Origin: Sanghuangporus weigelae
Lineage: Eukaryota; Basidiomycota; Agaricomycetes; Hymenochaetales; Hymenochaetaceae
Direction of reading: 5' to 3'
Length of the DNA stretch: 64,000 bases
Assembly: GCA_033182465.1 (NCBI GenBank)
Contig: CP137323.1
Location: 682,001-746,000 of the forward strand
A program made the translations under genes and the position numbers. Under the pieces are notes generated by a model, which was given only the letters and a program-made list of their open reading frames with translations, made no database searches and had not been told where the DNA came from. This document shows, in pieces, positions 35,917-56,306 of the stretch; within the stretch, counting starts at the first letter, position 1; every line of letters begins with the position of its first letter.

Positions 35917-37695
35917 ATGTCGAACTCGAACTTCGGTTCTTCGAAACGCGAAATTTTGGTCGGCTTTGGCATCGACGCCGACGGTGTTTCCGGATGGTGC
36001 GTCATTATTTGAAAGCTTATCGAGCTCGTATGATGCTGTTTCATTCTCAATAATCGACGGTTTTTTCTTACCGATACTAACTTGAAGTCGGACAGGCTTG
36101 GCCGAGGCGGAGGAGGTGAAGATCCGGTGGATATCTCGCGAGTTCAGAAAAATGGATTCTATGTAATGATCTGTAGGGACTGAGGACCATAAATAGGGAA
36201 TGTATGCTGGAGAAGTCGGAATACCGCGTCTTTTGAAGTTATTTGAACAATTCGGGATCAAGACTACCTGGTTTGTACCCGGTGTGCACCTTTCGCATGC
36301 CAAAGGATCTCCCGGGCTGATTTTATGCCTCTTGCTCCGGAACCGGTTCATTAAGGTCACAGCCTAGAAACATTCCCGGACCAGTTGGCTGCTGTCCGTG
36401 ATGCCGGACACGAGATGTGCGCCTGTCAATTTGTCGTCACAAACTCGGAATTGATCTCTATATCCCTCATTAACTCATCTCCAGCGGTTTGCACGGTTAT
36501 TCCCATGAGGTATGCCCTAAAAAACTCTGATATATTTTGCCAACCAATACACCCCAGAATCAGAGGCGCTTGAACATTGAACAAGAGCGTGATGTTTTCA
36601 ATCACACTATTACGCTGTTGACCGACTTCTGCGGCGGAGTCTCTCCAAAGGGAAATGTTGCACCCTTCTGGGAAACAAGTCGTGAAGGCATAAATTTGCT
36701 TCTGGACAAAGGCATTGAATACGGTGAGCGAGCACTGTTCGGCGGTATTCCTGATTCTGATTGCAATTATCACTTACTTGATTTGAATGTCCGTAGACCA
36801 TTCTTACATGGCACATGAGTGCGCCTTTGAGTTGATTTCTTCGCATGTGACTGAGATTGGAAGTGAAGCTCCCAGGCTTATTATTTACGTGAAGGAGATA
36901 GTTGGACGTCCATTGACTACGATGCAAAGGCCGAAACTTGGATGAAGCCTCTTCAACGAGGCAGCGAAACGGGGTTGGTGGAGATCCCGGCAAATTGGTT
37001 TGTATCCCCTTAGATATTTCCGTGGTGCACCTCTTCTGACCCAATCGATGTCAGGTACTTGGATGACTTTCCGCCTCTTGTGTACGTACCTGACATCACA
37101 TATGGTTATTTCCTATTCAAGATAAATTACTGCAGCTTCGTGAAGTCGAGACCGAACTCTCACGGCTGGGTACTTGGAATCATCGGAATCCAGGAAACTA
37201 TCCTGACATTTTGATGCATATTGCAGGTTAACACTCGCGACGTAGAAGATCTCTGGAAAGATACGTTCTCATACTTATATCGGTATGCTCTCACTCAGTT
37301 CTTTCATGGCCGTCTACATTCCATCGGACTTCGGCGCACTAATCATTCTTCCAGAGAAGAAAAGGATTTCATATTTCCGATAACCCTCCACCCGGATGCA
37401 AGCGGGTATGTGAATATCTATCTCTGAAATCCTCAAGAATTAGGATTAAACTCAAGTTTCCGTTCTAGTCGTCCGCACGTCCTCATGATGCTGGTGAGTT
37501 CCTCGGCTTCATCGTATATCGGTATCCCGGGACGAAACCGGGGGACTGACATCATGCATGCAGGAGCGCTTCATCACCTGGGTCAATACCCACGAGCACG
37601 TACGCTGGGTACCTTTCATCGAAATGGCAAGGACATTTCGAGCGAAGCAGGCGCCTACACCTGGATCCATAATGCCTGCAGGATTCAAAGAGTAA
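35917..37695 (+). CDS. polysaccharide-deacetylase-fold hydrolase 1 (HP0310/PuuE type)
   Basis: NodB-fold metal hydrolase close to Helicobacter HP0310 (PgdA), bacterial PuuE and cyclic imidases. Fourteen exons: 35917-35996, 36096-36141, 36197-36281, 36356-36416, 36485-36509, 36558-36723, 36797-36818, 36869-36997, 37055-37081, 37136-37169, 37227-37282, 37355-37405, 37469-37493 and 37564-37695, in total 939 bases, 312 residues. The metal site is visible: Asp20 in [13 protein letters not shown] and His94 and His98 in GLHGYSHE. Other signatures are ATTWF-like KTTWFVPG, the [20 protein letters not shown] block and [13 protein letters not shown]. There is no signal peptide, so it should be intracellular. 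The glycine loop reads [10 protein letters not shown] against [10 protein letters not shown] in the second copy. Its last exon is copied twice more to the right. The substrate, an N-acetyl sugar or cyclic amide, is not decided. Confidence 0.92.
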
Positions 37696-38670
37696 TCGGC
37701 TTAATGCACTATTAGCTACGCGAGAGTAAGGCGCATCGAGCGAAAAGGTAATGAAAGGATCCTATGTAAAATAAGAAAACTATGAAGAATACATACATAT
37801 GTATGCACATCAATTGGATAGCATTACTGAGCTACAACTCCACGCAGCTAGGTTAGTACTTGTAGGATGAGTATCGTGCTCGAGCACTCAGACTCGGTAA
37901 AGCAGTTTGGCCATACCTTATCTATCAACAGGTTAACGTCTGGGGTTCAAAAGACAAACGGAGCAAAGACTGAAGCGTGCTTACTATGCTAACGTTGTGC
38001 TCTGAAAATTCGAAAGGGGGGAAGGGCCACAGACCCATCCTCTGTTCCCCACGTCTCTTTGATTATCTGCTTCAGCCCGCAATGATCCCAATGCGACTTC
38101 TGATACGACAGGATAGATCATGGGTACATGCACGCGATCTTCTTTCCTGTGTTGATGGAGTTTTCATTGATACAGGAAGATTTGTTGGCAAGATACAAAG
38201 ACCAATCATATAAGTACGATATGAGAGTAGTTAATTTCCTTCCCCTCTCGATAACCTGGCATTTGATCATACCGGGTATCTCGTGGATTATGTTCGATTT
38301 CAAGCTTCTGATAGTGTCCGAGCAAATCAACCAACTGCAACAGGTAATAGTCATGCTCACGATCAAAACGACAGGTTGAAAGATCTAGGCATGTTGTATC
38401 GTATGTACATATGTAGTAGTGATTATGCTAGGATGTAATTATAAAGCAATAAAAATGAGATGCGAACAATTATAGAGTACACTTGCTTGACAAATCATAG
38501 CCATCCGAATATACAAGCAAAACATAAAACAAAGCCCTCTAACATAAACGCGGTTCAGCAGGACCAGCCCGCAATCAAGCCTACACCAATGGTAAATCAC
38601 TACAAGGCGCAGTCTTAGATATACATCATGTGAAGAGGTTCCGGACGAACCTTGCCTAAGACATAAACGA
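37696..38670. other. non-coding block shared by the three kinase units
   Basis: No gene seen. Landmarks that recur in the other units include GTGCTTACTATGCTAACG near 37978 and the string around GTACATATGTAG near 38405, followed by GCAATAAAAA near 38443. It is the 3' flank of both deacetylase 1 and kinase A. Confidence 0.7.
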
Positions 38671-38876
38671 TTAGGCATATAGATCGCCGTAGTTGTCGTC
38701 AGCCGAACCAGGCTTCTTCGAGAAGTCTTCATCTAGGGTACGTCTTGGAACATGCTGACCTCCCCGAGCCAGAGGTCGCAGCAACAGTTCATCAGGACTC
38801 TCTTGATCCTGACTCTCTTGATCCCGATCTTGCTGTTCACCGACATCGTTGGAGGCACCGCCACCGCAGTCAAGCC
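38671..38876 (-). pseudogene. out-of-frame remnant of the kinase A C-terminal tail
   Basis: In the next frame this segment reads NDVGEQQDRDQESQDQESPD and ends in NYGDLYA, clearly matching the acidic tails of kinases B (DQNQESQDQESPDELLLQ) and C. In kinase A one T is missing in the stretch where C has TTGCCTTTAAGG and A has TTGCCTTGAGG, so the kinase frame stops at 38877 and this tail is no longer read. Confidence 0.8.
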
Positions 38877-41863
38877 TCAAGGCAAATGGCCGCTACTACT
38901 GTTCCGTATACTCAAGCGGGAACGTTTGTTCTCTGGTTGAGGTTCTTCATAAGGTCCCTCAGTTTCCGTCATTGATCGTTTGCTACCACGCTCCGACTGA
39001 GGCTGGGAAGATTCGCTGACTCGCGAGCCTGTGATGATCGAGGTCGATACGCGCGTGGCCCAATAATAGGACGCCCCCGGGATGAACTTATCCGCCACGC
39101 TATGAGCGACTCTTTCGACTCCCGTCTGTCTTCCTTTGGAAATACCATTGCAGATGGCACGCATATGACGCCAAACATCTTCGCTTGTCCAAGTTGTCAG
39201 AGCTAAACGGCCCTTGACATTTTCCTCCGCGTAAGTTGCAAGGTCGGCGTATGCGTTTGAAAACCAAGCCTTGATATGATCATTCTTAAAAAGAAATTCT
39301 GTCGTGAATTTCGAAGGATTGTACTTGTAGGTCCGCTTCTTGTCACCGCCAGAAGGTTGTTCATCGTCCAAAGAAGAGTAGTCGAAAAAGTTAAACATCC
39401 AGGTACCAAGCTTCTTTTTGATATTATGTGGGAGCCATAAAACGGCGCAATATAGCGAAACGTAGAACAACGATTCCAGGTCATCTTGATGCGAGTGACG
39501 AAATCCTGGCTTCCTGAGGAGCGCATTTGTCGACATATATGCCCAAGTTCCCTAGATGTGGAATTAAGACGCGACGGTCAATTCTGTCTGAAGTAAACAC
39601 ACCGATCGGTAATAATCTCCCGCCTTCCCTTCCCTGTCTACAAGGACTGAGAATTCCCAGTCTATGAGAACACCTATTCTTCTCCCCGTCACCCTGCATC
39701 TACATAGAATGATGTTGTCCAGGCTGACATCACGATGCAGTCTCTTGCACTTTTCGTATGCAACAACAAGGGCTACAAACATCGTGAGATGATAGATATG
39801 AAGGCACGGAAAGTCGCACCTTCAAGTACATCCTGTAATGCCAGGAATAACTCAACAGCATCAGTAAATTCACTGAGTGGATATCCGACCGTGGTAGTCG
39901 TCATCCTAAAATGCACATGTCTGACGATACGACGGTATAGATCGTCTGTCGATTGTTCGGGGAGCACGTGACATGATTCGCTGACCCACTCCTCATGTAT
40001 AAATTCTTGAGTCCTCGTAGTTTGCGGTTCCTCAGAGGCTTCGATGACTGGTTCCCCTTCTCCGATTTCACGTGCTGAATCCCCAGAATCGCTTTCTGAG
40101 TCAAGAAAATCCGTATCTTCATCCTAGTTATGAAGTTAATTGGCAATACTGCTAAGTATTCACAAAATCTAGCCGTACCGGTACATCTCCAAAGCAATCC
40201 AATTCAGGTATGTTTGGCACCTTTTTTTGTCCCATATCGGACAGAATCTCGCCTTCTGATGTGAGGCCGGGCAAATCGATGCGCCAGACGTCCTTCAGGA
40301 AACCTATCTCGACTTTTTCGATGCTCCCATCCTCTTTCTTCACTATTTTAGCCGACCAGTAGCAACGGGAGGAGCGACCCGAAGAGGACAATGGGCAGTG
40401 GACAGGCACGGAAACAAGATACTCTTCAGGTGTCGATTGAGAACCGTTGTGGGCCATGACTTTCGTTACTTTATCCTTCTCGAAGTGCACTTCCACGGCT
40501 TCACGCAGCTTCGCTGTATCGTTGCGATCAATGTTCTTCTGAAATATGACCTCCTCAGTGACAGCATCCTCAAACAACTCAATTTCTCGCTGCGAGGCGA
40601 TGGTGACAGTAGGATCGAAGCCACGCTCAACCATATCGGCGCTACTGAATCGCCAGAGATATCGGCACAACGGCTCCGGATTCTGCTGGTAATCAAATGC
40701 TCTAGTCACAATAGTTCCCGCGCGATCCCATCGGAAGAAACGAGCTCTTGTGCCAACTATGAGTACGGAATGGTAGAAGACGCGATGCTGACGCGCGCAT
40801 CCCTCCGAAGCATACGAAACATTCTGGCCGAACGCCTTCTTTTTCTTTTCCCGTTTGCGCGAGTCAATCTTATAGTTTTCCCAGTCGAAGAAAGACTCGT
40901 TCTCCTCATGATCGTCCTTTAGCGGATCCTGATCGTCGGGTTTCACCTCGAAGAAAGTCTCCGCGATGCCCAAGTTGGCACATGTATGAATCGCATTACT
41001 GGTTTTGCTGCAGACTTCTTTAAGAAGAGACACATCGCCTTCGTTGTACGCAGTAACATCGGGCTTAGAAACCCCTCGCCCGCTTTGCTCTGAGGTGACT
41101 GAAGTGTCAACGAATGTCAGGCCCGGACAGCGCCCGTTCTCGTTGATGGCTGCGATCTTGTATTAGATGAAGAAGATGTTACTTATGAAACTGCGATTCG
41201 GAAGGAGAAACGTACCAGGGGAGGATAAATATGTGTTTCATGATGCGCTTTTGCAGGCACAGTGTCGAATGCACCTGTAGGATCTGGCATCTCGCTTTCA
41301 TCTACTGCCGGAAGAAATTCGTCAAGGAACTCCTCGACTGGCATCGGTCCGATAAGCACTCTTATTCCGTCATCTGCGTTTCGAAGGTGTTTGTCTTCTG
41401 CCTTGTTCGGATGCATGGCATGCTTGTTTGTGGTCTCTCTCAAAGCCAGCGGGGTTTCCTTCGCCATAGGAGCACGTCTATTGCGGCGTGGAGTTGTTGT
41501 TGCGTTACGAAGAGGCAGATCGGATTGGAAATATCGCGGGTATCCAGACAGACCGTCTGAATGAAGTGGATTCGATAAAAGCTCTCGTTGAGGTATTCTC
41601 AAAGGATGATCGTCCTGCGTTTCCTGACTGCTGCCGTCTTTGATATCCCCTGGCAGTGTCAAAGACCCATCGTAATTCCGTGTCAAGGGAACTCGACCTC
41701 GAATACGGTCGCGTCTACGACGTGGTTCTATAGGATCGTGAGGATTAGGCCGGCGAACCGGAGTCTCGGGCTCGGGATCATTGTCCCATGGATATGGGTA
41801 GTCAACGTCGATTTCGTCATCGCCGACTACGACGTAGTCTGCGTCTACATCGTCTTGGAACAT
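38877..41863 (-). CDS. FunK1-type protein kinase A
   Basis: Fungal-specific kinase of the FunK1 family (Pfam Pkinase_fungal), expanded in Agaricomycetes. Five exons: 41863-41216, 41156-40179, 40123-39820, 39772-39603 and 39551-38877, in total 2775 bases, 924 residues. After an acidic start with YPYPWDN and a disordered region come the FunK1 signatures CARQHRVFYHSVLIVGTRAR and FFRWDRAG, then the catalytic loop LHRDVSLDNI with Asp658 and Asn663 and the metal-binding DWE (Asp681) in place of DFG. GTWAYMSTNALL and SHQDDLESLFYVSLY follow, as in the family. The acidic tail of its paralogues is lost by a one-base shift, but the kinase core is whole. I chose Met at 41863 because it matches the starts of B and C. 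Substrates and pathway of FunK1 kinases are poorly known. Confidence 0.88.
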
Positions 41864-41940
41864 AGTTGTAGGTTTGAAAGGCTGGTGGTGGTTGAGAAAG
41901 ACGCGTGTCACCAACACCGTCACACCGTGTGTTGTCGGGT

Positions 41941-41971
41941 CATGTGATCCATTTACTTACGTAAAGCACCT
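41941..41971 (-). promoter_or_regulatory. conserved upstream element of kinase A
   Basis: CATGTGATC, then a palindrome TTACGTAA at 41957-41964, then AGCACCT. It lies about 95 bases before the kinase start and is kept in all three units. TTACGTAA is a typical bZIP (Yap or C/EBP-like) binding palindrome; the regulator is inferred, not known. Confidence 0.5.
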
Positions 41972-42024
41972 GACTTACGCCGTATAGTATGCGTCAGCAA
42001 GAAAGAAGTCGTTGGTGTGTCCCT

Positions 42025-42245
42025 AAGCTTCATCATATATCAGTATCCCGGGACGAAACCAGAGACTTGATCATGCATACAGGAACGCTTCATCACCTGG
42101 GTCAATAGAACACATACGCTGGATACCTTTCATCATAATGGCAAGGGCATTTCGAGCGAAGCAGGCGCCCGCATCGGGAGCCATAATGCCTACAGGATTC
42201 AAAGAGTAATCGTCCTAATTCACAACTATCTGCACGAGAGTAAGG
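42025..42245 (+). pseudogene. relic of deacetylase last intron and last exon (1)
   Basis: It matches the end of deacetylase 1 from the string TATCCCGGGACGAAACC in its intron 13 to GGATTCAAAGAGTAATCG past its stop codon. The acceptor CAG has become ACAG before GAACGC, an in-frame TAG follows GTCAAT, and there is no deacetylase sequence to the left. It is a dead fragment carried in by the tandem duplication. Confidence 0.88.
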
Positions 42246-43207
42246 AACGTCGAGTGAAAAGGTAATGGAAGGTTCCTATGTAAAATGATCAAATTAAATG
42301 TACATCAATCGGATAGCACCGCTGAGTTACATCCTACGCAGCTGGTATTATAGTACTCGTAAGGTGAGTATCGTCTTCAAGTACTCAAACTCGATAAAGT
42401 AGCTCGTCAGCCGGTCATACCCTATCTATCAACACGTTAACGTCTGGGGTTCAAAAGACAAATGAAGCAAAGACTAAAGCGTGCTTACTATGCTAACGTT
42501 GTGCTCTGAAAATTCGAAGTGGGGGAACGACCACAGACACAGACCCCTCCTTTGTCTCCGTATCTCTTTGATTATCTGCTTCAACCCATCATGATCTCTC
42601 ATTTTGCCTTGCATACAAACAGAATTTGTTGCATGCATCTAAATATCAAAAAGCGATATCTTTGAATGCGACTTCTGTTACGACAGGCTAGATCATATAT
42701 ACTTGCAAGCAACCTTCTTTCCTACGTTGGCGGAGCTGTCATAGCTAATATTAATGTTCGCCTTGCGATATCACAGGTAGTTGACTTCCTCCCCATCCCG
42801 ATAAGCTGGAATTTGATAATACTAGATATCTCGTAGACTTTATTCACCCTTGAGGTTTGATAATTATCGAGCAACCACAACGAGTGATAGGTATACTAAC
42901 AAACAAAACGACAGGGTGAAAGGTCTAGACATATTGTATTGTATGTACAGATGTAGTATTGATTATTATGCTGGAATGTAATGCAATAAAAACGAGATGA
43001 GACCGATTACAGTCAAGACTTGCTAGCTCGACAACGAGATCCGAAGATACAATAATCAAAGCATAGAACAAAGCCATCTAGCATAAATACGGACATAAAG
43101 AACCGGCCCGCGATTAAGCCTTAGACATATATCATGCGAAGAGAATCTATCCGAACAACTACTGCCTAGAACTGTCTCGTGCCCGGATAGGCCCACGACA
43201 TATCCGA
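42246..43207. other. non-coding block of unit 2
   Basis: No gene seen. Strings near 42420-42510 (GGGGTTCAAAAGACAAATG, GTGCTTACTATGCTAACG) and near 42940-42990 repeat those of unit 1, including the GTATGTACA and GCAATAAAAA landmarks. Confidence 0.7.
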
Positions 43208-46200
43208 CTAGACGTACAGATCATCGTCGCCATCGTCATCGTTAGGCAGATCAGGCTTGTTCGAGGGTTCTTCGTTCACGGTACGTCTCGGATCATGCTG
43301 ACCTTTCCGCTTCAGAGGTTGCAACAACAATTCATCCGGACTCTCTTGATCCTGACTCTCCTGATTCTGGTCTTGCTGTTCATCGATATCGTCACCGGTG
43401 CCGCCGTCAGAATCAAGTTTCAACGGCGAACGGTCGGAGTGGATGCTCAGTATACTCACTCGAGAGCGCTTGTTCTCCGGCTGAGGTTCTTCAGAGGGTC
43501 CGCCGATCTCCGCTAGTGACCGTTTGCTACCACGCTCAGATTCAGGCTCGTGAAGTACACTTATTCGCGACCCCGAGATACGAGAAACTGAAACATGTGT
43601 AGCCCAATAGTTACGTTGTTCCGGGATGAATTGGTCCTCAACACTATGTTCGACCCTATCGAGTCCCGGTTGTTTCGGCTCGGATAGACCCTTGCAGACG
43701 GCACGCATATGTTTCCGGACGTTATTGCCGGTCCAAGTCGAATCCTCTGGCTTGATCATTCTTGAGAAAGTTGAGAGGTCGCGATACGCGCTCCCAAACC
43801 AGGCATTTATATGATCGTTATCGAAAATGAATTCGTTGCTGAACTCCGTTGGATCTAACTTATAGCTTTGCTTCACAAACCCGCCAACCATGATGCCGTT
43901 ATCTCGAACAGAATGCTGATCGAAAAACTCAAACATCCAGCTGCCCAGCGTCTGCTTCTCATTATGCCGGAGCCAATAAACGGCGCTGTACAGAGAAATG
44001 TAGAACAGCGATTCCAGGTCATCCTGATGCGTGTGACGGAAATCTGGGCTCCTCCAGAGCACGTTTGTCGACATGAACGCCCAAGTGCCCTGGAAATGGG
44101 ATTAGGTATGATGGTCAACCCTGATCAGGACCAAACATAACGCACAGATCGAAAGTAGTCTCCTGCTTTCCCTTTCCTGTCAATAAGGACTGAGAATTCC
44201 CAGTCTATGAGAATACCTAATCTTCTTCTCGTTACCCTGCATCTGCATAGGATGATGTTGTCCAGGCTGACGTCACGGTGCAGTCTTTTGCATTTTTCAT
44301 ACGCGATAATAAGGGCTACAAGCACCGTCAGACGACGTGTACGGAGAGGTTTGATAACACTCGCCTTCGAGAACATCCCCCAATGCAAGGAATAATTCAA
44401 GAGCATCAATGAAGTCACTGAGTGGATATCCGACTGTCTTTGAAGTCATTCGGTAATGTACGTGCTTGACAACACGGCGATAAAGATCGTCCACTGATTG
44501 CTTGGGAAGCACGCGGCATGACTTGCTGACCCAATCTTTATATATAAACTCTTGTGTCCTTGTCGTCTGCACCTTTCCAGAAGCTCCAATGACTGGATCG
44601 CCTCCATCGACTTTAACCTCCGGTTTGTTGCAACTATCATCCTAAACCAGCGGAAAGGTCGAGTATGAGTCGCCAACACGAATATCCATTTACAGGAAAC
44701 TATGCATACCTTTACATCTCCAAAGCAATCAGGCTCGGGTATGTTGGGCACGATCTCCGTCATCTCGGTTAGAATTTGCCCTTCCGTTGCCAGACCGGGC
44801 AAAGCAATGCGCCAAATGTCCTTCAGAAACCTAATCTCGCCCTTTTCTATGCTCCCGTCGAGCTTCCTCGCCACTTTAGCAGACCAATAGCCACGGCAAG
44901 AACGACCTGCGGCGGATGATGGGCAGTGAACAGGTACGGAAAGAAGATACTCTTCAGCCTTTGATTCAGAATAGTTATAGACCATCGCCTTGGTCACTTT
45001 ATTCCTGTCAAAGTGCATCTTTAGAGCCTCCTCCATCTTCTCTTTATCGTTGGCATCGATACCCAGTTGAAAAGCGACCTCAGCGGAGACGACTTTCTCG
45101 AAAACGTCAGTTTCCTCCTTTGAAGCCACAGTAACGGTGGGGTCGAAGCCACGCTCAACCATATTGGCGCCGCTGAATCGCCACAGATATCGACACAACA
45201 ACTTTGGATGCTGTTGGTAGTCGAATGCTCTGGTCACTATGACTCCCGCGCGATCCCATCGAAAGAAACGCGCTCTCGTGCCGATGATGAGTAAGGAGTG
45301 GTAAAAGACGCGATGTTGACGTGCGCAACTCTCCGCAGCGTACGATACACTCTGTCCAAACGCTTTCTTTTTCTTTGCTGCGATCCCATCTTTTTCAGAA
45401 AGATAATTTTTCCAATCGAAGAAATGTTTTCCCTCCTTCTCGGAATCATCCATTAACGGATCAATGTTGTCCGTTTTTATCTCGCAAAAGCTTTCCGCAA
45501 TGCCTAAGTTAGCGCATGTATGGATCTTGTTGCCTTTTTTGCTACGAATACGTTTAAGCAGGGACAGATCGCCGTCATTGTACGTGGAGACATCGGGCTT
45601 AAAAACTCCTCGCGTATTCTGCTCTGAAGTGACTGACGTATCGACGAACGTCAGGCCTGGACAGCGCCTGTTCTCATTGATGGCCGCAATCTTGACCAAA
45701 ACGAAAACACGCGTTACTTATGAAAGAGTGACCAGGTCTGAAAAAACGCACGAATGGATAGTAGATTTCCTTTTCATCACTTGCACCTCTGGGCACAGCG
45801 TCAAACGCACCCGTTGGATCCGGCATGTCGCTTTCATCCATTGCGGGGAGAAACTCGTCGAGAAACTTCTCGACAGGCATCGGTCCAACAAGCACTCTCA
45901 TTCCTTCATCCGCATTTCGGCGATGCTTGTCTTCTGCCTTGTTTGGTTCCATGGCACGAGTGTTTGCGGACATTCGCAAAGTCAAAGGGGTTTCCTTCGC
46001 AATGGGAGCACGTCGATTGTGGCGTGGCGTCATTGCTTCAGTACCGTTAAGTAGATCCGATAGGGATAATCGGGGGTATTCCGAGAGATCATCTGAATGA
46101 AGTGGATCTGGTGGAAGCTCTTGCTGAGACTCCCTCAAGGGATAATCATCCTGCGTTTCCTGGCTACTGCCTTCGATCTGTCCGGGTAGCGTGAGGCCTT

Positions 46201-46438
46201 TGGTTTGCTCGGGCAGAGTCAAAGATCCGTCATCACCTACTCGACTTCGAAAACGGTCGCGGTCGCGTCTATTACGTGGTACCATACGATCGTTGGGATT
46301 AGGGCGAGTCTTTGGCTGCACACGGTCGTCATCATCGGGCTCATTGTCCCATGGATATGGGTAGTCAACATCGACTTCATCATCGTCAACCTCATCTTCG
46401 ACTGCGGCGTAGTCTGCGTCTACATCGTCTCGGGACAT
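43208..46438 (-). CDS. FunK1-type protein kinase B
   Basis: Second tandem FunK1 kinase. Five exons: 46438-45752, 45690-44710, 44641-44365, 44315-44146 and 44089-43208, in total 2997 bases, 998 residues. The N-terminus is acidic (MSRDDVDADYAAVEDEVDD, then YPYPWDNEP). The FunK1 core has CARQHRVFYHSLLIIGTRAR, FFRWDRAG, the catalytic loop LHRDVSLDNI (Asp663, Asn668) and IDWEFSVL. It keeps the full acidic tail with the repeated word ESQDQESPDELLL, ending in DDDLYV. The third intron (44364-44316) begins with GCGAGT instead of GT; both paralogues have GT there. Reading through it meets a stop before the catalytic loop, so a GC-AG splice is needed for a kinase. In exon 4 it is closer to A than to C. 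Confidence 0.88.
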
Positions 46439-46499
46439 AGCGATAAGTTTGAGAGGCTGGTAGTGGTTAAAAGACGCGTGAACATCTGTGTTGTCGGAG

Positions 46500-46530
46500 C
46501 ACGTGATCCATTTACTTACGTAAAGCACCT
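46500..46530 (-). promoter_or_regulatory. conserved upstream element of kinase B
   Basis: CACGTGATC (a full E-box core, where A and C have CATGTGATC), then the palindrome TTACGTAA at 46516-46523 and AGCACCT. It lies about 80 bases before the start codon of kinase B. Confidence 0.5.
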
Positions 46531-46569
46531 AACCTCAATGCTGCGTAGGCAAGGCTGGTGCGTCTCCTA

Positions 46570-46770
46570 CTTCATCATATATCGGTAGCTGGGACGAACC
46601 CGGAGCCTTGAAATTATGAATACAGAAGCGCTTCATCATCTGGATCAATGGAGCACATATGCTGCATTATGTTCGAAATGGCAAGCGCATTTCGAGCGAA
46701 GCAGGCACCTGTGCCCGGAGCTACGATGCCTGCAGGCTTCAAATAGCAATCGTCTGTCCTAATGAACTAT
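46570..46770 (+). pseudogene. relic of deacetylase last intron and last exon (2)
   Basis: It resembles the end of deacetylase 1 (GGGACGAACC, AAGCGCTTCATCATCTGGAT, GCATTTCGAGCGAAGCAGGC, GCCTGCAGGCTTCAAATAG) with more changes and a short loss around the sequence for WVPFIE. It is a dead fragment like the one at 42025. Confidence 0.85.
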
Positions 46771-47772
46771 TAGCTGTCGAGGACAAGGGACGTCGGACAA
46801 ACACGCAAAGATGATGAAAGGCTTCCATGCACAATGTTGAAATCATCATGAATACGTACACGCATGTGCACATCGATTCCTATCACGGTACTCGTATGGT
46901 AAGTACCGCCTCAAATCATTCAAATTTGGTAGAGCAGTCGCTCAACTGCTCACACCTCCATCAGTCGACAAGTTATCATCTAATGTCAGTCGAAAGGTGT
47001 CGAGCGTGCTTACTATGATACGTTGTGGCCTGACAATTCGAATCAGGGAAATTTCTTGTTGTGCTTTCTTTTCGACTGATCGGTTCGACTCATGATGATC
47101 CGTAACTTCAGTTCTCGTGGTACTGCAGAAATTTGTTGTATACTTCCGCCCGCCATACCTGAGTAGTGTTGTCCTCGAACGCGAGGTCTGACACGGCAGG
47201 CACAATCATATCTGTAAGCGAGCGAACTTCTTTCCAATGCTGGAACTTCCATAGATACAGGAAGGTTCATCGCGATTGACAAGTTTACTCAGGTAAGTAA
47301 TTGATTCCAGCTTGTAATATGAGGTGTAATTGGTCTGCTTTCCGTCCTGATGATCTGACTTTTATAGCACTAAGTATATCGTGGATGATATTTAGCTTCG
47401 AATTTCTGAGAATGGTCAAGCGACTGCAATAGCTGATGTGTATGCTCATGATCAAAACGACAAGTTGAATAGTCTAGGCATATTGTATTGTATGTACATA
47501 TGTAACATTGATTATGCTGGAACGTAATGCAATAAAAACGGGATGCAAACGATTACAGTCTACACTTGCAAGCCAAACCAATGACATCCGAATATAAAAC
47601 GAGAGCAAAGCACAGAATAAACTACCTAGAATAGGTGCAACTTTACGAGCCAGCTCCGCAAGTCAGCTTGCACTAACGGCGAACTCCTTCAAAGCGTAAC
47701 CGGAGGCATACATTATGATAAGCGATCTGGACGCCACTGTCCAAGACAAGACTGATTCGTATCTTTGCAGGA
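46771..47772. other. non-coding block of unit 3
   Basis: No gene seen. It keeps a weaker version of the shared landmarks, such as GTGCTTACTATGATACG near 47008 and GTATGTACATATGTA near 47488, followed by GCAATAAAAACGGGATG. Confidence 0.65.
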
Positions 47773-50700
47773 CTACAACATATCCGGTTCTGCGACATAT
47801 AGATCGTCGTCGTCGTCATCGCTAGGTAGACCAGATCGCCTCGGGAGATCTTCCTCCAGCAGGAGTTGAAGCAATTCATCAGGAATTTTTCGTTCGTGGT
47901 CTTGCTCTACACCGACACCGTTACCAGAATTGCCATCAGGATCGAGCCTTAAAGGCAAATACTTGGTTTGGATGTCCTTTAGACTCAAGCGGGAACGTTT
48001 GTTCTCTGGCTGGGGTTCACTGGAGCGTTCTTCGAACTCCGTTCGCGACCGTTTGCTACCAGGACCTGACTGCGGCTGGGATATTGTACTAAGTCGCGCG
48101 CCTGAGCCGACGTTGGAGACAGAAATATGAGTTGCCCAATAATTGCATTCTTCCGGGATGAATTTATCGGCCACGCTATGTTCGACCTTGGTGACTCCCT
48201 GTTGTTTTCCCTCAGAAAGAGCTTCGCAGAGGACACACATATGTCTCCAGACGTTTTTGCTCGTCCATTTCGAATCCTCTATCTTGACCAAGTTTGAGTA
48301 AGTTGAAAGATCCGGATATGATTTCGCAAACCAAGCATTTATATGCTCGTTCTCGAAGATGAATTCCGTACTGAATTTCGCTGCATAGTACTTGTAGCTC
48401 AGTTTCACGTGACCGCCAATCGTACTGCCATCTTCTTGCACAATTGCTTGATCGAAAAAATTATGCATCCAGCCTCCTAGCGCCATCTTTTGATTATGCG
48501 GGAGCCGATGGACAGCAAAATACAGCGCAACATAGAACAACGATTCGAGGTCGTCCTGATGCGAGTGACGGAAATCGAGGTCCCTCAGGAGTACGTTCGT
48601 TGACATGAACGCCCAAGTTCCCTGAATATTTAATTAGGCATGGCGATTTGATTGACCAGAACTGAGCAGACCCACAGATCGGTAGTAGTCACTTGCCCTC
48701 CCTTCCCTGTCTGCGAGAACTGAGAATTCCCAGTCTATGAGAACACCCATCCGCCTGTTGTCCTTCTTGGATCTGCATAGAATGATGTTGTCCATGCTCA
48801 CGTCACGGTGGAGTCTCTTCATTTTTTTGTACGCAATAATCAGAGCTACAGGCACCATCAGACTGAGGGTGACAAGAGGAATGGAAACGCCCACCTCTGA
48901 GAACATCCTTCAATGCTAGAAATAGTTCAACAGCGTCAGTAAAGTCACTGAGCGGATATCCGACTGTCTTGGAAGCCATTCGATAATGTACGTGTTTGAC
49001 AACACGACGATGAAGATCATCCACGGATTTTTCGGGAAGAATGCGACATGACTTATTGACCCATTCTTTAAATATAAAGTCCTGAGTCCTAGTCGTCTGC
49101 GCTTTTCCAGTAGTTCCAGAGACATGTTGGCCTCCACCATTAGTAACCTCCATTTTACTGTAATCATCATCCTAAACCAGCAGAAATGGTTGAGTATCAA
49201 CCACCAATGCCAGTATTCGTCTACGGAAAATCAACGTACCGGTACATCTCCAAAGCAGTCCACTCGTGGTATATTGGGAACAATTCCCGCCATTTCGGAC
49301 AGAACGTCTCCCTCCGTTGTCCCACTAGGAAAATCATTACGCCAAACGTCCTTTAGAAACCCCACCTCGCCTCCTATGCTCCCATCCTGGTTCCTCACCA
49401 CTTTAGTGGACCAATAACCACGAGAAGAGTGGCCTGCACAGGATAATGGAGAATGGACAGGTACAGAAACAAGATATTCTTCCGTTTGCGATTCTGAATC
49501 GCCGTAGACAATGGCTTTCGTCACCTTCTTGTTTTCAAAATGCACCTTGAGGGCTTCTTCCAACATCGCCTTATCGCTACGATCGATGCCTTTTTGAAAT
49601 GCGACCTCCTCGGTGACAACTTCCTCAAACACAGCAGTTTCGGCCGCTGAAGCGATGGTAATGGTGGGGTCGAAGCCACGCTCAATTGTATTGGCACCAC
49701 TGAGTCGCCACAGATATCGGCATAGCAGCTTCGGATTTTGCTGGTAGTCGAATTTTCTTGTCACAACGATTCCGGCACGATCCCATCGGAAGAATCGAGC
49801 GCCCGTGCCGACTATGAGCACCGAATGGTAGAAAACACGGTGCTGGCGTGCGCAACTCTCCGAAGCGTACGATACAGCCTGGCCAAATGCTTTCTTTTTT
49901 TTCTTATACGAAGACCCATCCTTGGTATAATTTTTCCAGTCGAAGAAATGCTTGCCTTTTTCCTCAGACTCGTCAAAAAAGGGATCACTCTCGTCATCTG
50001 GTTTCACTTCGAAGCAACTCTCCGCAATGCCCAAGTTAGCACATGTGTGAAGAACGTCGCCAACTTTGCTGGGGACTCGCTTAAGTAGGGACACGTCCTC
50101 TTCATTATACACGGTGACATCCGGCTTGAAAACCCCTCGTCTCTTCTGTTCTGAAGTGACCGACGTATTAACGAATGTCAGGCCTGGACAGCGCCCATTC
50201 TCATTGATAGCTGCAATCTTGATTAGATGAAAAAAGGAGTTAATTATGAAACAGCAACGAAGATGAGGAAACACACCAGTAAAGGGTAAATTTCCTCTTC
50301 ATGTTTCGCTCGTTCAGGCACACCATCGAACGCGCCCGTAGGATCCGGCATCTCAGTCTCATCCACTGGCGGAAGAAATTCGTTGAGAAATTCCTCGACG
50401 GGCATTGGTCCAATGAGCACTTTCATCCCTTCATCCGCATTTCGGAAATGCTTGTCTTCTGCCCTGTTGGGAACCATTGCATGCCTGTTCGCAGTCTGTC
50501 TCAAGGTCAGAGGTGTGTCCTTCGCGACGGGAAAGCGTCTATCGTGGCGAGGTGTCGTAGTTGCGGTACGCCGAGGTAGGTCAGATTGGGATAACCGAGG
50601 GTAATCCGGAAGATCGTCTGAATGAAGTGAGCTTGGCGGAAGTTCTCGCCGAGATATCCTCAAGGGATGATCATCCTGTGTCTCCTGGCTCTCCTGACTC

Positions 50701-50963
50701 TCCTGACAGCTGCCTTTGATCTGCCCGGGTAGTGTAAGGCCTTTCGTCTGCCCGGGTACCGTGAAAGATCCATCGTCCGCCACTCGACCTCGAAAGCGGT
50801 CGCGTCTCCGGCGAGGTTCCATAGGATCATGAGGATTAGGGCGGTGAAGCGGTGTCTTTGGCTCCAGACTGTCGGGATCATTGTCCCATGGATATGGGTA
50901 TTCAGCTACGACTTCATCATCTTCGGCTGCGACGTAGTCCGCATCTGCGTCGTCTCGGGACAT
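47773..50963 (-). CDS. FunK1-type protein kinase C
   Basis: Third tandem FunK1 kinase. Five exons: 50963-50277, 50217-49240, 49171-48895, 48845-48676 and 48621-47773, in total 2961 bases, 986 residues. It starts with MSRDDADADYVAAEDDEV and YPYPWDNDP. The core carries CARQHRVFYHSVLIVGTGAR, FFRWDRAG, the catalytic loop LHRDVSMDNI (Asp662, Asn667), and LIDWEFSVL. Its loop between them (CRSKKDNRRMG) differs from the CRCRVT type shared by A and B. The tail is shorter than that of B and ends in DDDDDLYVAEPDML. All four introns have GT donors. The gene looks intact. Confidence 0.88.
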
Positions 50964-51412
50964 AGCGGTAAGTTTGAGAGGCTGGTGGTGGTTGAACTTG
51001 AAAGAAAGACGCGTGTTACCAACATCGTCACACCGTGTGTTCTCAGGTCATGTGATCCATTTGCTTACGTAAAGCACCTAACTCATTCAATGATTGATCT
51101 CTGGATCGGCGAACGAAGGAAGAATTTGGAAATAGACACACTTGAATCAAGTTGGATGGCGGTCTGATTTAATAGTAGCATTATTGTTGTCTGTTGGACG
51201 TATCATCCTTCTGCTGAGCTTTGTATGCATTTGACATCTTCATCTGACACAGTATCAATTCTTTTATTCGGCCATTCAGAATCTTTACCTCTGATCTTCA
51301 AAAAAAATAAAATAGGAGATACATCAATGTGTTAAAGTCATATGATATTATATTCATTTCCATAGAGATTTCGATAGTACTTGATGTCGTCCAGGCAGAT
51401 TAAGCCGCACTT
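50964..51412. other. region between kinase C and deacetylase 2
   Basis: It includes the kinase C promoter element and then about 330 bases of unique sequence that form the 3' flank of deacetylase 2. No gene seen. Confidence 0.6.
51049..51079 (-). promoter_or_regulatory. conserved upstream element of kinase C
   Basis: CATGTGATCC, the palindrome TTACGTAA at 51065-51072, then AGCACCT. The position, about 100 bases before the start codon, agrees with kinases A and B. Confidence 0.5.
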
Positions 51413-53171
51413 TCAGGAAATGTCAGCTTTAAACCCTGTAGGCATGCGTGCACCCGCCGCAGGTGCCTTCTTCGCGCGAAATGAGCGTGCCATCTCAATC
51501 ATGGGCACCCATTTGACATGTTCGTGAGTGTTAATCCACGTTATGAAACGTTCCTATACGAGACATATGTCTTAGAATTTATATTGTATTGGTGAGGCTG
51601 AGACGTACGAGCATCATGAGGACATGCGGTCGACTTTAGAGCGAGTAAAAGGCATTAATCTCTTCTGATTTCAGACCAGGTAAGTTTATTTCCGCACCCG
51701 CTGACATCAGGATGGATAGTAATCGGGAAGATAAAATCTTTCTCTTCCCTGAAAGGACCGTTAGGTTGGATTAAAATAAACGAGAAGTCATACGGTGGGA
51801 CTCGCCGATACAAATAACTAAATGTATCTTTCCAGAGATCTTCGACGTCGCGTGTGTTTACCTGGCAGGATATGCTCAGTTTGTTATGCAAAAGGGACAC
51901 AGAGGCAAGAAAGCTCACCCATCCATGAGAATTCGGAGCGGCTTTAATGAACCTAAGTAGTAGTCAATTATCTGGAATACAATGCGATTACTTTCCTTGA
52001 ACGCACATCATAGGCGGAAGGTCATCCAAGTACCTAAAATACAATTTCTCAGTAACGCCAAGAGATAAGCAAATAGGTTACGCACCAATTTGCGGGAATT
52101 TCTACCAATCCTGTCTCGTTTCCGCGCTGCAGAGGCTTCATCCATGTCTCGGCTTTGGCATCATAATCAATTGGAGTCCAGTGGTCAGCATCGCGCAGAT
52201 AATATGCCTGTGAGCTATGCTCGAAAGACAGCTCAAATCCACTTGTAACGGTAGGAGAATCAGAAGTGCCTACTCGTGCGCCATATTAGAATGGTCTGGA
52301 TTCAATCCGGCGAAATCAGTATCCGATGGTCGGAAGGGAATACTCTGCGTACCATATTCGATACCCTTGTCCAGAAGCAGGTCTGTACCCTCGTGACTGG
52401 TTTCCCACCAAGGAGCGACGCTGCCTTTGGGAGGAATGCCTCCGCAGAAGTCGGTAAGCATAGCATATGTCTTATCAAGAATGTCGCGTTGTTGTCCAAT
52501 CGTCAATGATTTTGGATTCTAGAAAGCAGCTATGCTATCAGCGTCGTCTAAATAGAGTGATGGGGAGGCGTGACGACTTACTTCATGAGAATAGCCATGA
52601 AGCCCACTAGTATAGCACAGGATATTTAGTCATACCGCACAATGAAACGATTGGTGACCTACATTTCATGTCCAGCATCTCTGACGGCAGCCATTTGTTC
52701 TGGGAAAGTTTCCAAACTATGACCTATCGGATTTCCATCTGACTATTTGCGTAACTTTTAGCGAACTGGTTGCTCACCAGGGATGAACCAGGTAGTCTTG
52801 ATTCCAAAACGTTCGAAGAGCTTGAGCAAGCGCAGAGAGCCGACTTCTCCTGCATACATTCCCTGAATTCGATAATAGTTCAACTAATAGCTCCGTGGAA
52901 ATGCATGGACGAGGAACAGACCCGCGAAATATCCCCTGGAGAGTCATGGCCACCATACGAGCCCAACCTACATGTTCGACAGGTTAGAAAGATGTGAATC
53001 ATTTACAAATACTTTCCAGGAAGAGAAAACTAATAAAGGATGGAGACTCTACTATGCTTGGCTTATGAAGAAGCGTAGAAGTTTTGACTGATAAACGTAC
53101 CATCCCGCAACAGCATCGACATCGACACCAAACCCAATCAGTACTTCACGTTTTGAATCTGAGCCAAGCAT
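51413..53171 (-). CDS. polysaccharide-deacetylase-fold hydrolase 2 (HP0310/PuuE type)
   Basis: Paralogue of the gene at 35917 with the same 14-exon plan: 53171-53101, 52967-52922, 52862-52778, 52723-52663, 52606-52582, 52518-52353, 52295-52274, 52214-52086, 52033-52007, 51952-51919, 51861-51806, 51748-51698, 51633-51609 and 51553-51413, again 939 bases and 312 residues. Exons 2 to 13 match copy 1 in length base for base. It keeps the bacterial-like signature [17 protein letters not shown], Asp17 in [12 protein letters not shown] and His91 and His95 in GLHGYSHE, plus [17 protein letters not shown]. The eleventh intron (51805-51749) begins with GCGAGT in place of GT; it is 57 bases long and has no stop in frame, so retention would only insert 19 residues. 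No signal peptide, so probably cytosolic. Confidence 0.92.
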
Positions 53172-53726
53172 GCTTTCACTCTCTTCGGCCTTACTTCACC
53201 AGATTGTAGGTGCGCAATTCGTTGGAGATGTGAAGATGGCGGTAATTGAATGAGTGAGAAATCATTAATACCGATAAGTAGATACGAATGGGAAAGAAGT
53301 GCAATTAAAATAAAGTTCCTTTGTGGGGACCGATTAGATAAGGGTCTGGTTATTTGTCTTTATTTACACACAACTCTTCCTCCTTCCGCGATGAGCGACC
53401 ATGTCTTTGTCAAGTCGCGAGCAAAATGGAGTGGGTAACAGTTTACTGGATCAGAGTCAGCCGCCATGTAATAGATATGCATAAATATTCTAAATGGCTC
53501 GGTCAGACCTGGAATCGATGTCCAGGCGATTTGTCTTTCCTTCCACCACGGGCTGACGCTTCACGAGGATGTTTAAAGATATGCTGACTGCCTCAGTCAG
53601 CCCGTCGTTTCTTTCATCCTTTCCTCCCGCCTCTCAAATAAGTACTCTCCTCTTTCACATTCCGCCTGGCACTTTCTCTAACAAAAATTTGCCTCACGTT
53701 CGTTACCTACCAACTACATTCCAACA
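53172..53726. other. divergent promoter region
   Basis: It lies between deacetylase 2 (minus) and the secreted protein gene (plus). No gene seen. The last 100 bases are C and T rich and run into the start context CAACAATG. Confidence 0.6.
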
Positions 53727-56306
53727 ATGCGCATAACGCTCTCGACGCTCCTTTGTGCCCTTTCGTTCCTTATCTTATCTGGAGTTGACGGCCGTGATTC
53801 TATACAGCATCAAATTTCGCATCGTGTTCCTTCATCGATTCTGGATACATGTGCTTATATTGATTCTACTCTGTCTGAATTTCTCGGCTATATACCTGGT
53901 ACAATCAACGGAGATGGAGAAGACATTCCAGTTCAGACTTGTCTCTGTACCTCGGAGGTCAAAACTTTTATCGAATTTTCGAATCTAACTATCGGCGATA
54001 TGGGCGCAGATGAGCTAGAGCTTGCCGCAGAAGAGTATATCGCCGAACATCCTGGAGCTCAGCACTGCGTCTACCCGCCCAACTCGAGCCCGAGATGTTC
54101 CCGCGGTGATCCATGTGGTTACGAATGTACAAACGGCTTCAAACACCAGTCCTATAGAATATGGGGAGGAGTGAAGAACGAGTGCACATGTCCCTCACCG
54201 AATATTGTCTGTAATGGTCGATGTGGGCTGTTCGCGAATGGGTGTCCTTCTCCTGGAGTTGCCCCTGATGAAGCATACAGACCGTATCGAGACCCGGCAA
54301 TCCGGGCACGTCCTTCGATTTCTGCTCGTCCGTCTGCATCTCCATCTCCGAGCGCTGCGTTCAAGTCCTACTCGGCCACTCCCACTGGTTCCTTCTACAA
54401 TTCTCAGGCACAACAAGCTCAGGAAGCCGGCTGTGCCCCTCAGGAGACTCTATGCGGTGCGTATGCTCCGCGTGGGCGAATCACGACGGAATGCGTCGAC
54501 ACTCAAAATGATTTGGAGAGTTGCGGTGGTTGTATGGTTGCACCGCCTTCACCATTCTTGAATGCGAAGCGTGACAAGCCAATGGGTGTTGATTGTTCCT
54601 CCCTCGAAGGCGTTACGGATGTGAGCTGCTATCATGGTCACTGTGTTGTACAGGTTTGTGAAGTCGGATGGATGGTCGCACCGTCGGGTGATCATTGTGT
54701 CCCGAATACGCATAGTAATGCTGCTTATGCTCCCAAACCTGAAGATGGAAAGGCTGATGGCAAGTGGTACGCGCCGGCCCATATGCCCTTTTTACAATCT
54801 CCTTCTCCAACGTCAACTTCCCCAGCGCCAACAGCATCATATGATCCAGCAACCCCAAGCACGACGTCACCTTCTCACTCTCCATCACCTGATTCCGATT
54901 CGGAAGCATCTACGTCTGGGAGTCCGTTCTCGTCCGCCGACTCAAGTTCGGATGAAGATCAGGAATCTGACTCCAGGTCTGCACCGCCAAGTCCAGATAA
55001 TGAACCGAATTCTAACCCTGGGTCCGCGCCAAGTGCTGAGCCTGCTTCAACTGCTGAGTCTGCTTCAGATGCGGATGCGGATGCAGATGGCAATGCAGAA
55101 AATTCCTCTGGTGCTTCCGGTTTCGATGGTGCAAATGCTGACTCGAGTTCCGACGATGACGCAGATGCAAATTCTACTTCTGGGGGTGCGGGACTTGGTT
55201 TCGGGAGATTCCCCTCAGGTAGCACGGACGATTCGTCGTGTGGAAATCTTCGGCGCGACGTTGACGCTGGAGTCTGTATTTCCGAGTCTGCTGAAGAGGA
55301 TGTGAACGCCAGTGACGCTACCGCATCTCAGTTCGTCAATGATGTGGAGGACCCAGACGCGCTCGCAGATGACTTATCCAGTCTTGCGACCGCCTCATTT
55401 ACGATGGAGGCGACAGCGTCGGCCTCGGCCGATGATGCAACGGGTGCTGCACCGACCTCGACGCTGACCTCTGATGTTGTGCCTAGCACCCTAGTAACCT
55501 CCGTGGCGGATGACACAGGCGTAGACACAAGTTCTGGGGGAGCACGGCTCGGTTTTGGAAAGTTCCTCTCGGATAGCACGGATGAGTCGACATGCGGAAA
55601 TCTTCGGCGCGACGTTGACGCCGGAGTCTGTATTTCTGAGTCTGCTGAAGAGGATGTGAACGCCAGTGACGCTACGGTATCTCAGCTTGCCAATGATGCA
55701 GTGGATCCAAACGCGTTCGCGAACGACTTGTCAAGCCTTGCGAGTGCCTCTTATACAATGGAGGCGACCGCTTCAGTCTCTGCGGATGATACAACGCACG
55801 CTTTGCCGACTTTGACGCTGATCTCTGATGTTGTGCCTAGTCCTTTAGTAACTACTGCGGTTGACGATGCAGGCGTGGATGTGACTTCTGGAGGAGGACA
55901 GCCCGGCTTTGGATCGCTTCTCTCATATAGCACAGACGAGTCGTCATGTGGAAATCTTCGCCGCGACATTGAGACGGGAGTCTGTATTTCTGAGTCTGCT
56001 GAAGAAGACGTGAACGCCGATGGGAATACTGTCTCTCAAGTTGTGAGCGATGTGGAGGACCCAGAATCGCTGACAAGTTCTTCTGCAGAGGACCTATTGA
56101 CCGTCGCAACTGCCTCAGTGACAATGGACGAAACAGCTTCAGTCTCTGCGGATGATATTTCAACGGACACATTGCCAACTCCGACAGTGACTGATGATGT
56201 TAAGCCAACTTCTCTGGTGACAGCTGATGCGGATCCTCCGTCGCAAACACCAGATATTCCAAACGATGGCGCAGATGGACTTGAAGTTGATCTTTCGAAT
56301 GTATGA
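53727..56306 (+). CDS. secreted CPL1-like cysteine-rich protein with tandem tail repeats
   Basis: A single exon of 859 residues. Residues 1-22 (ending in LSGVDG) form a signal peptide, so the protein should enter the secretory path. Cysteine-rich segments follow (CAYIDSTL, QTCLCTSEV, CSRGDPCGYECTNGF, NECTCPSPNIVCNGRCG) and then a CPL1-like domain: ETLCGAYAPRG, TTECVDTQNDLESCGGC, DCSSLEGVTDVSCYHGHC and CEVGW. In Cryptococcus, CPL1 is a secreted virulence-linked protein; that function cannot be carried over directly. A Pro/Ser/Thr region and a Ser/Asp-rich region lead to three tail repeats of exactly 118 residues from about Cys505 to the end. Each repeat opens with CGNLRRD and has a second Cys eight residues on. 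The RR pair could be a Kex2 site. No GPI signal is seen. Confidence 0.85.
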   Translation: MRITLSTLLCALSFLILSGVDGRDSIQHQISHRVPSSILDTCAYIDSTLSEFLGYIPGTINGDGEDIPVQTCLCTSEVKTFIEFSNLTIGDMGADELELAAEEYIAEHPGAQHCVYPPNSSPRCSRGDPCGYECTNGFKHQSYRIWGGVKNECTCPSPNIVCNGRCGLFANGCPSPGVAPDEAYRPYRDPAIRARPSISARPSASPSPSAAFKSYSATPTGSFYNSQAQQAQEAGCAPQETLCGAYAPRGRITTECVDTQNDLESCGGCMVAPPSPFLNAKRDKPMGVDCSSLEGVTDVSCYHGHCVVQVCEVGWMVAPSGDHCVPNTHSNAAYAPKPEDGKADGKWYAPAHMPFLQSPSPTSTSPAPTASYDPATPSTTSPSHSPSPDSDSEASTSGSPFSSADSSSDEDQESDSRSAPPSPDNEPNSNPGSAPSAEPASTAESASDADADADGNAENSSGASGFDGANADSSSDDDADANSTSGGAGLGFGRFPSGSTDDSSCGNLRRDVDAGVCISESAEEDVNASDATASQFVNDVEDPDALADDLSSLATASFTMEATASASADDATGAAPTSTLTSDVVPSTLVTSVADDTGVDTSSGGARLGFGKFLSDSTDESTCGNLRRDVDAGVCISESAEEDVNASDATVSQLANDAVDPNAFANDLSSLASASYTMEATASVSADDTTHALPTLTLISDVVPSPLVTTAVDDAGVDVTSGGGQPGFGSLLSYSTDESSCGNLRRDIETGVCISESAEEDVNADGNTVSQVVSDVEDPESLTSSSAEDLLTVATASVTMDETASVSADDISTDTLPTPTVTDDVKPTSLVTADADPPSQTPDIPNDGADGLEVDLSNV
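55239..56300 (+). repeat. three in-frame 354-bp tandem repeats
   Basis: The codon for the Cys of CGNLRRD falls at 55239, 55593 and 55947, so the spacing is 354 bases both times. The first two copies are nearly identical over their first 80 bases; the third has diverged more (CGNLRRDIETGVC). The frame is kept, giving three 118-residue protein repeats. Confidence 0.92.

Follow-up and report, generated by a model that had tools for sequence, protein, structure and literature searches.

A FunK1 kinase locus, very likely built up by stepwise segmental tandem duplication and reshuffled later, with a dead deacetylase exon as a tag of origin

The Sdic locus of Drosophila is a tandem array whose units carry pieces of the flanking genes, and in the tandem arrays of Trypanosoma gene conversion leads to a mosaic evolution of the genes. 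The FunK1 array described here resembles Sdic in that a breakpoint within a neighbouring gene has placed a partial copy of that gene in each unit, but here the partial exon lies outside the new gene as a dead passenger, and a further unit, on a different contig, bears this tag as well. With the Trypanosoma arrays it shares copy segments with conflicting trees; in contrast to those arrays, however, its units are ca. 26-30% diverged overall, and exchange has therefore been patchy rather than homogenising.

FunK1 kinases are greatly expanded in some fungi, where their function is poorly known, and the published account attributes to them lineage-specific duplication and expansion, low expression and an active-site serine (PMC3203195). 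The present array is similar to those expansions in its PF17667 match, its HRDVS serine and the presence of duplicates within one genome. The word 'tandem' is absent from the main text of that account, the accessible portion of which describes no unit structure, neighbour relics or segment exchange (PMC3203195). There are good descriptions of both partial duplication and non-allelic recombination (PMC3449122), and no paper combining 'FunK1' with 'gene conversion' was found within a limited literature collection. Tandem duplication with exchange is a process already known; what makes the present locus informative is its dead exon, a label of descent by which one can read from a single genome in what order the duplications came, how segments of the kinases were reshuffled and that one unit moved.

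Layout of the array and its neighbouring genes

The window, that is, the whole 64,000-nucleotide stretch of Sanghuangporus weigelae DNA that was analysed, corresponds to C6:682001-746000 in a 33.9-Mb genome of 13 contigs, and contains the following features (window coordinates).

35917-37695, plus strand: gene A, polysaccharide-deacetylase family, intact, 14 exons (splice reading, PF01522)
37494-37563 and 37564-37695, plus strand: last intron and last exon of gene A, forming the left end of unit 1
37490-42010, no strand assigned: unit 1, left homologous end GCTGGTG, where exon 13 of gene A meets intron 13
38877-41863, minus strand: K1, predicted FunK1 kinase (PF17667), 5 exons, 924 aa
41941-41970, minus strand: conserved upstream element of K1, containing TTACGTAA
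42011-46553, no strand assigned: unit 2, left homologous end GTTGGTG
42083-42209, plus strand: unit 2 relic of the last exon of gene A, with a 5-bp deletion that shifts the frame
43208-46438, minus strand: K2, predicted FunK1 kinase, 5 exons, open, intron 3 with a GC donor (GC-AG)
46500-46529, minus strand: conserved upstream element of K2 (pattern search)
46554-51092, no strand assigned: unit 3, left end GCTGGTG, homology petering out at ca. 51085-51092
46626-46746, plus strand: relic of the last exon of gene A in unit 3, with the 5-bp deletion of the unit 2 relic and an additional 3-bp gap
47773-50963, minus strand: K3, predicted FunK1 kinase, 5 exons, open, 986 aa
51049-51078, minus strand: conserved upstream element of K3 (pattern search, 1 mismatch)
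51413-53171, minus strand: gene B, paralog of gene A, intact, 14 exons, convergent to gene A, right boundary of the array

The three units follow one another in direct orientation with start-to-start spacings of 4521 and 4543 bp, and the order inside each is the same, namely the last exon of the deacetylase, non-coding DNA, a minus-strand FunK1 kinase and the conserved upstream element. A BLAST comparison of the window with itself yields direct diagonals at the spacing of ca. 4.5 kb (among others, 37492-38078 versus 42013-42587, 80%; 37490-37717 versus 46554-46775, 76%; 43451-46468 versus 47980-50993, 74% over 3060 columns), while global alignment over ca. 4.4 kb gives identities of 73.7% for units 1 and 2, 70.2% for units 1 and 3 and 72.3% for units 2 and 3. 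The right ends of the units agree to ca. 20 bp, with unit 3 lacking the final ca. 18 bp of the unit end that is present in units 1 and 2 and in a further unit on contig C7 (see below). A composite junction probe is matched over bases 1-116 by both C6 junctions, over bases 1-40 by the end of unit 3, over bases 58-109 by gene A and over bases 1-58 by C7. Self-comparison, alignment and junction probe together bear out the earlier description of three units with common boundaries, and these head-to-tail units with common ends constitute a segmental tandem duplication array. The breakpoint that had been placed within the deacetylase gene is likewise found there, since the unit copies begin at the start of the last intron of gene A. 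The junction between units 1 and 2 contains, at 42000-42012, ca. 9 bases more than that between units 2 and 3, which is possibly a trace of repair or excision.

Genes A and B flank the array face to face, as a diverged inverted repeat. Gene A has 13 GT-AG introns and is open through 14 exons (312 aa), and gene B, in which one intron has a GC donor, is also open through its 14 exons; the idea that either gene is dead was accordingly dropped. Their predicted products belong to the polysaccharide-deacetylase family by their PF01522 profile scores (54 bits for A and 47.6 bits for B, cut-off 23.1) and are 78% identical over 309 codons, with a saturated and hence undefined NG86 dS. The 17 protein-level matches to gene B in the genome all lie in gene A, in B itself or in the two relics on C6, and further, more distant PF01522 matches occur in three places, on C2, C1 and C4.

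Just as had been annotated, unit 1 carries the living last exon of the deacetylase, gene A being intact, whereas the copies of this exon in units 2 and 3 are dead, frameshifted relics. In the alignment, the 5-bp deletion is present in the relics of units 2, 3 and C7 and absent from both A and B. Relative to the exon of gene A, the relics differ at 13 of 127 sites (unit 2) and 25 of 124 sites (unit 3), and these differences are distributed over codon positions 1, 2 and 3 as 8/1/4 and 13/3/9, respectively, versus 12/3/28 for gene B; small as they are, the counts for the relics show no weighting towards third positions, whereas those for A versus B do. The relics drift as passengers, and their use is solely that of a tag of origin. 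Their derivation from gene B, following loss of its last exon, was considered and rejected, as a last exon is still present in B and the introns of the relics align with that of A.

K1 belongs to the FunK1 family with a full-length PF17667 score of 155.6 bits (cut-off 24.1), and in K2 and K3 a single long exon of each scores 45.2 and 47.2 bits, respectively. The active-site serine that replaces lysine (HRDxS, position 8) is found in K1, K2, K3 and the C7 kinase, in the form LHRDVSLDN or LHRDVSMDN. The catalytic-loop HRD is retained in these predicted kinases, and what we take to be the position of the expected DFG reads DWE. K2 and K3 are open into a C-terminal tail of common type, before which K1 stops, the tail sequence being found downstream in a different frame. 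With pairwise NG86 dN/dS values of ca. 0.21-0.25 and dS of 0.87-1.06, the three window kinases are, as judged from sequence, under purifying selection; because a dS of ca. 0.9-1.1 is near saturation, any dates are rough. The upstream element has four matches in the genome at up to 3 mismatches, one per unit with C7 included, and none for the reversed-pattern control.

A further unit on contig C7

The array had been described as a triplication, a count that is exceeded by the existence of a fourth unit on contig C7, which is presumably on another chromosome. A search of the genome with K3 identified this additional copy, with exon identities of 62-70%, as compared with at most 46% over the longer exons for the next closest kin, on C8. 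Also, a DNA search with the last intron, the last exon and the downstream DNA of gene A gave a match at C7:1111344-1111594 (E 2.4e-9), beside the C7 kinase. By alignment, the relic, non-coding DNA, kinase and upstream element succeed one another on C7 as they do in the window, and the unit is present nearly from junction to junction, with one end at the equivalent of position 37522 of unit 1, ca. 32 bp in from where the units begin, and the other at the junction base of the composite probe. The C7 kinase contains a stop in exon 1 and may be dead.

Inside the C7 unit, at C7:1109613-1111124, is a 1,512-bp TG...CA insertion with GACTC on either side, which is likely to be a young solo LTR because its first 320 bases match 40 other places, among the matches listed, at 97-99% identity, many of these being paired ca. 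10.8 kb apart. The unit is situated between duplicated blocks (1100812-1102337 and 1113677-1115216, 85%) containing small membrane-protein-like frames, and near it a piece adjoining a WD40 frame is repeated (1099729-1100075 and 1104701-1105060, 88%), possibly another instance of a relic from a neighbouring gene.

Direct copies of a dispersed repeat of ca. 0.6 kb, starting TAGGGCTCCGC, are found at C7:1105124-1105584 and C7:1111601-1112157, no more than ca. 10 bp from the ends of the unit. The repeat belongs to a family with at least 49 matched stretches in the genome. For the left copy, homology begins at C7:1111594-1111601 in four of five other family copies, where the match to the unit ends at 1111600; for the right copy, homology stops at 1105577 in all five, ca. 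10 bp from the unit end at 1105588, and since the family continues past 1105577, this copy is cut on its unit-facing side. A second repeat, which has inverted ends of 31 bp (1112153-1112183 and 1112762-1112792), apparently interrupts the left copy. Placement at both unit ends by chance seems unlikely, and the repeat is therefore probably linked to the move. An interpretation of the direct repeats as LTRs created by insertion of the C7 unit was rejected, given a similarity between them of only ca. 72-77% for the most part and their membership in a family of the size given above. The ca. 0.6-kb repeat was also discarded as a component of the window junctions: the C6 matches listed for it (five rows, four places) all lie elsewhere on the contig, and the repeat, when compared directly with the window, gave no match.

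The candidate routes to C7 are composite mobilisation, circle integration and end-joining in a repeat-rich spot. The circle route, in which a one-unit DNA circle excised from the C6 array would have re-entered a different chromosome through recombination at the ca. 0.6-kb repeat at the unit junction and left the unit between direct repeat copies, is in our estimation improbable. If it were true and common, tandem FunK1 arrays would be the source of dispersed FunK1 genes.

Genealogies along the four units

The quartet made up of units 1, 2 and 3 and the C7 unit (unit 4) contains 420 parsimony-informative sites, which are split 148/106/166 over the three possible trees. These sites are clustered along the unit, with 233 neighbouring pairs alike versus 143 expected (shuffle test, p ≤ 0.0002), and the best changepoint, at 38417, was matched in none of 1000 shuffles. 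The eight segments used for AU tests were picked after the sliding windows had been viewed, which was not the case for the shuffle tests. In six of the eight, both rival trees are rejected at p < 0.05, and the winners include all three possible trees: (1,2)(3,4) is supported at 37700-38335, (1,4)(2,3) at 38862-39290, 39290-39600, 39600-39850 and 40250-41230, and (1,3)(2,4) at 41450-41960. The other two segments (38487-38860 and 40019-40250) prefer no single tree. Over the whole unit, only (1,3)(2,4) is rejected, the remaining trees both being acceptable. The segments thus have significantly conflicting trees, as in a mosaic gene family, and since they back three incompatible genealogies, segments have been exchanged among the units.

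The same switching of partners is seen in the divergences of the C7 unit, which, in the stretches where it has a clear partner, amount to 0.11-0.24 relative to that partner versus 0.29-0.45 relative to the other two units (third-position, intron and non-coding sites). The nearest kin of C7 is unit 3 at 37700-38335 (0.19), unit 2 at 38487-38876 (0.17), unit 1 at 38877-39208 (0.24 at third positions) and at 39603-39850 (0.15 at third positions, 0.11 in the intron), and unit 2 at 41450-41863 (0.12 at third positions). Close partners are lacking at 39209-39600 (smallest divergence 0.36 for third positions, 0.43 for the intron) and at 39851-40018 and 40179-41449 (0.37-0.41 at third positions). In a GENECONV-style permutation scan, 12 tracts reached p ≤ 0.05, calculated for each pair and uncorrected for the six pairs; three of these tracts, at 37505-37538, were rejected as exchange, being an edge effect of the missing left end of the C7 copy.

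One tree for the whole unit, with no exchange and with a mosaic look due to uneven rates and selection along its length, is an extremely unlikely account of these data. It would be in keeping with the constraint on the kinase exons and with the upstream region at 41779-41955, which is 86-95% identical in all six unit pairs, but the closest pair also switches at third positions, in introns and at non-coding sites (units 1 and 4 at 39603-39850, units 2 and 4 at 41450-41863, units 3 and 4 at 37700-38335; divergences as above). Furthermore, AU p-values for the rival trees are as low as ca. 1e-49, and shifts of rate on different branches would be required in each segment. Exchange among the units has two consequences for the reading of such loci: whole-gene FunK1 trees can mislead after it, and the resulting mosaic makes any one date for the copies wrong.

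Proposed history of the locus

The initial annotation had derived the array from unequal crossing-over and had dated all copies together. A single triplication of this kind, with all copies of the same age, would agree with the common unit ends and with the similar overall identities (70-74%), but we regard it as highly unlikely. The 5-bp deletion is restricted to the relics of units 2, 3 and C7, so that their relic ancestor postdates the first duplication and the copies were not made together; the trees of the segments are in conflict; and the pairwise divergences of the non-coding blocks, a check that had been put forward in the annotation itself, are unequal at 37700-38335 (0.26 between units 1 and 2 versus 0.39 between 1 and 3 and 0.37 between 2 and 3), which argues against one age. 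The common dating is contradicted by this restricted deletion and by the differing genealogies and divergences of the segments. Moreover, a comparison of the ancestral break regions on both strands (200 bp against 250 bp) gives 7 bp as their longest common word. A founding join with no longer common word leaves homologous unequal crossing-over unsupported as the origin of the array, although a homology that has since decayed is conceivable, and an illegitimate first join is the most likely; only the later copies can be put down to homologous exchange.

The FunK1 locus, which is an old one, instead very likely grew by segmental tandem duplication in steps and was reshuffled afterwards, the order and polarity of events being read from one genome. 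At first, a point ca. 100-160 bp upstream of the kinase would have been linked, probably without homology, to the place in gene A where exon 13 gives way to intron 13, and the structure of the junctions suggests that this would have produced a second unit carrying only the last exon of A. The orphan exon next acquired the 5-bp frameshifting deletion that its descendants carry, and further copies would have been derived from the deletion-bearing unit, most likely through homologous unequal crossing-over between units. In a fourth step, one unit, nearly junction to junction as the ends of the C7 copy show, was copied to C7 beside the dispersed repeats. Finally, as the statistics of the segment trees show, segments were swapped among the units by gene conversion or unequal crossing-over, making each unit a patchwork.

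A variant that is compatible with the first four steps places the move to C7 early and has it followed by ectopic gene conversion with the C6 array in both directions. We consider this possible, although doubtful. The C7 copy has high-identity tracts with all three array members, including identical runs of 44-53 bases with units 1 and 2 (35 at most with unit 3), and its partnerless stretches (0.36-0.43) fit a patchy conversion of a copy that had moved early. On the other hand, exchange is usually commoner between adjacent copies than between chromosomes, and the clear-partner tracts are similarly diverged, as could also result from one move and reshuffling within the array, a point that is not decisive.

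Further FunK1 loci exist in the same genome, in which the PF17667 profile has at least 117 matched stretches; this abundance of FunK1 genes and the shortness of the introns are indicative of a fungus, probably one that forms mushrooms. On C11 (913-936 kb), three tandem FunK1 matches several kb apart lie inside repeated blocks, and since the main blocks of these repeats (C11:915862-930950) are 94-96% identical, the C11 array is far younger and FunK1 arrays arise repeatedly in this genome. Relics of neighbouring genes could, in the same manner as the deacetylase exon, trace the origin of dispersed FunK1 genes.

As a separate observation in the window, a long open frame at 53682-56306 contains a CPL1-like domain (PF21671) and ca. 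three copies of a repeat of ca. 354 bp (ca. 118 aa) at 55178-56065, with a DNA identity of ca. 80%.
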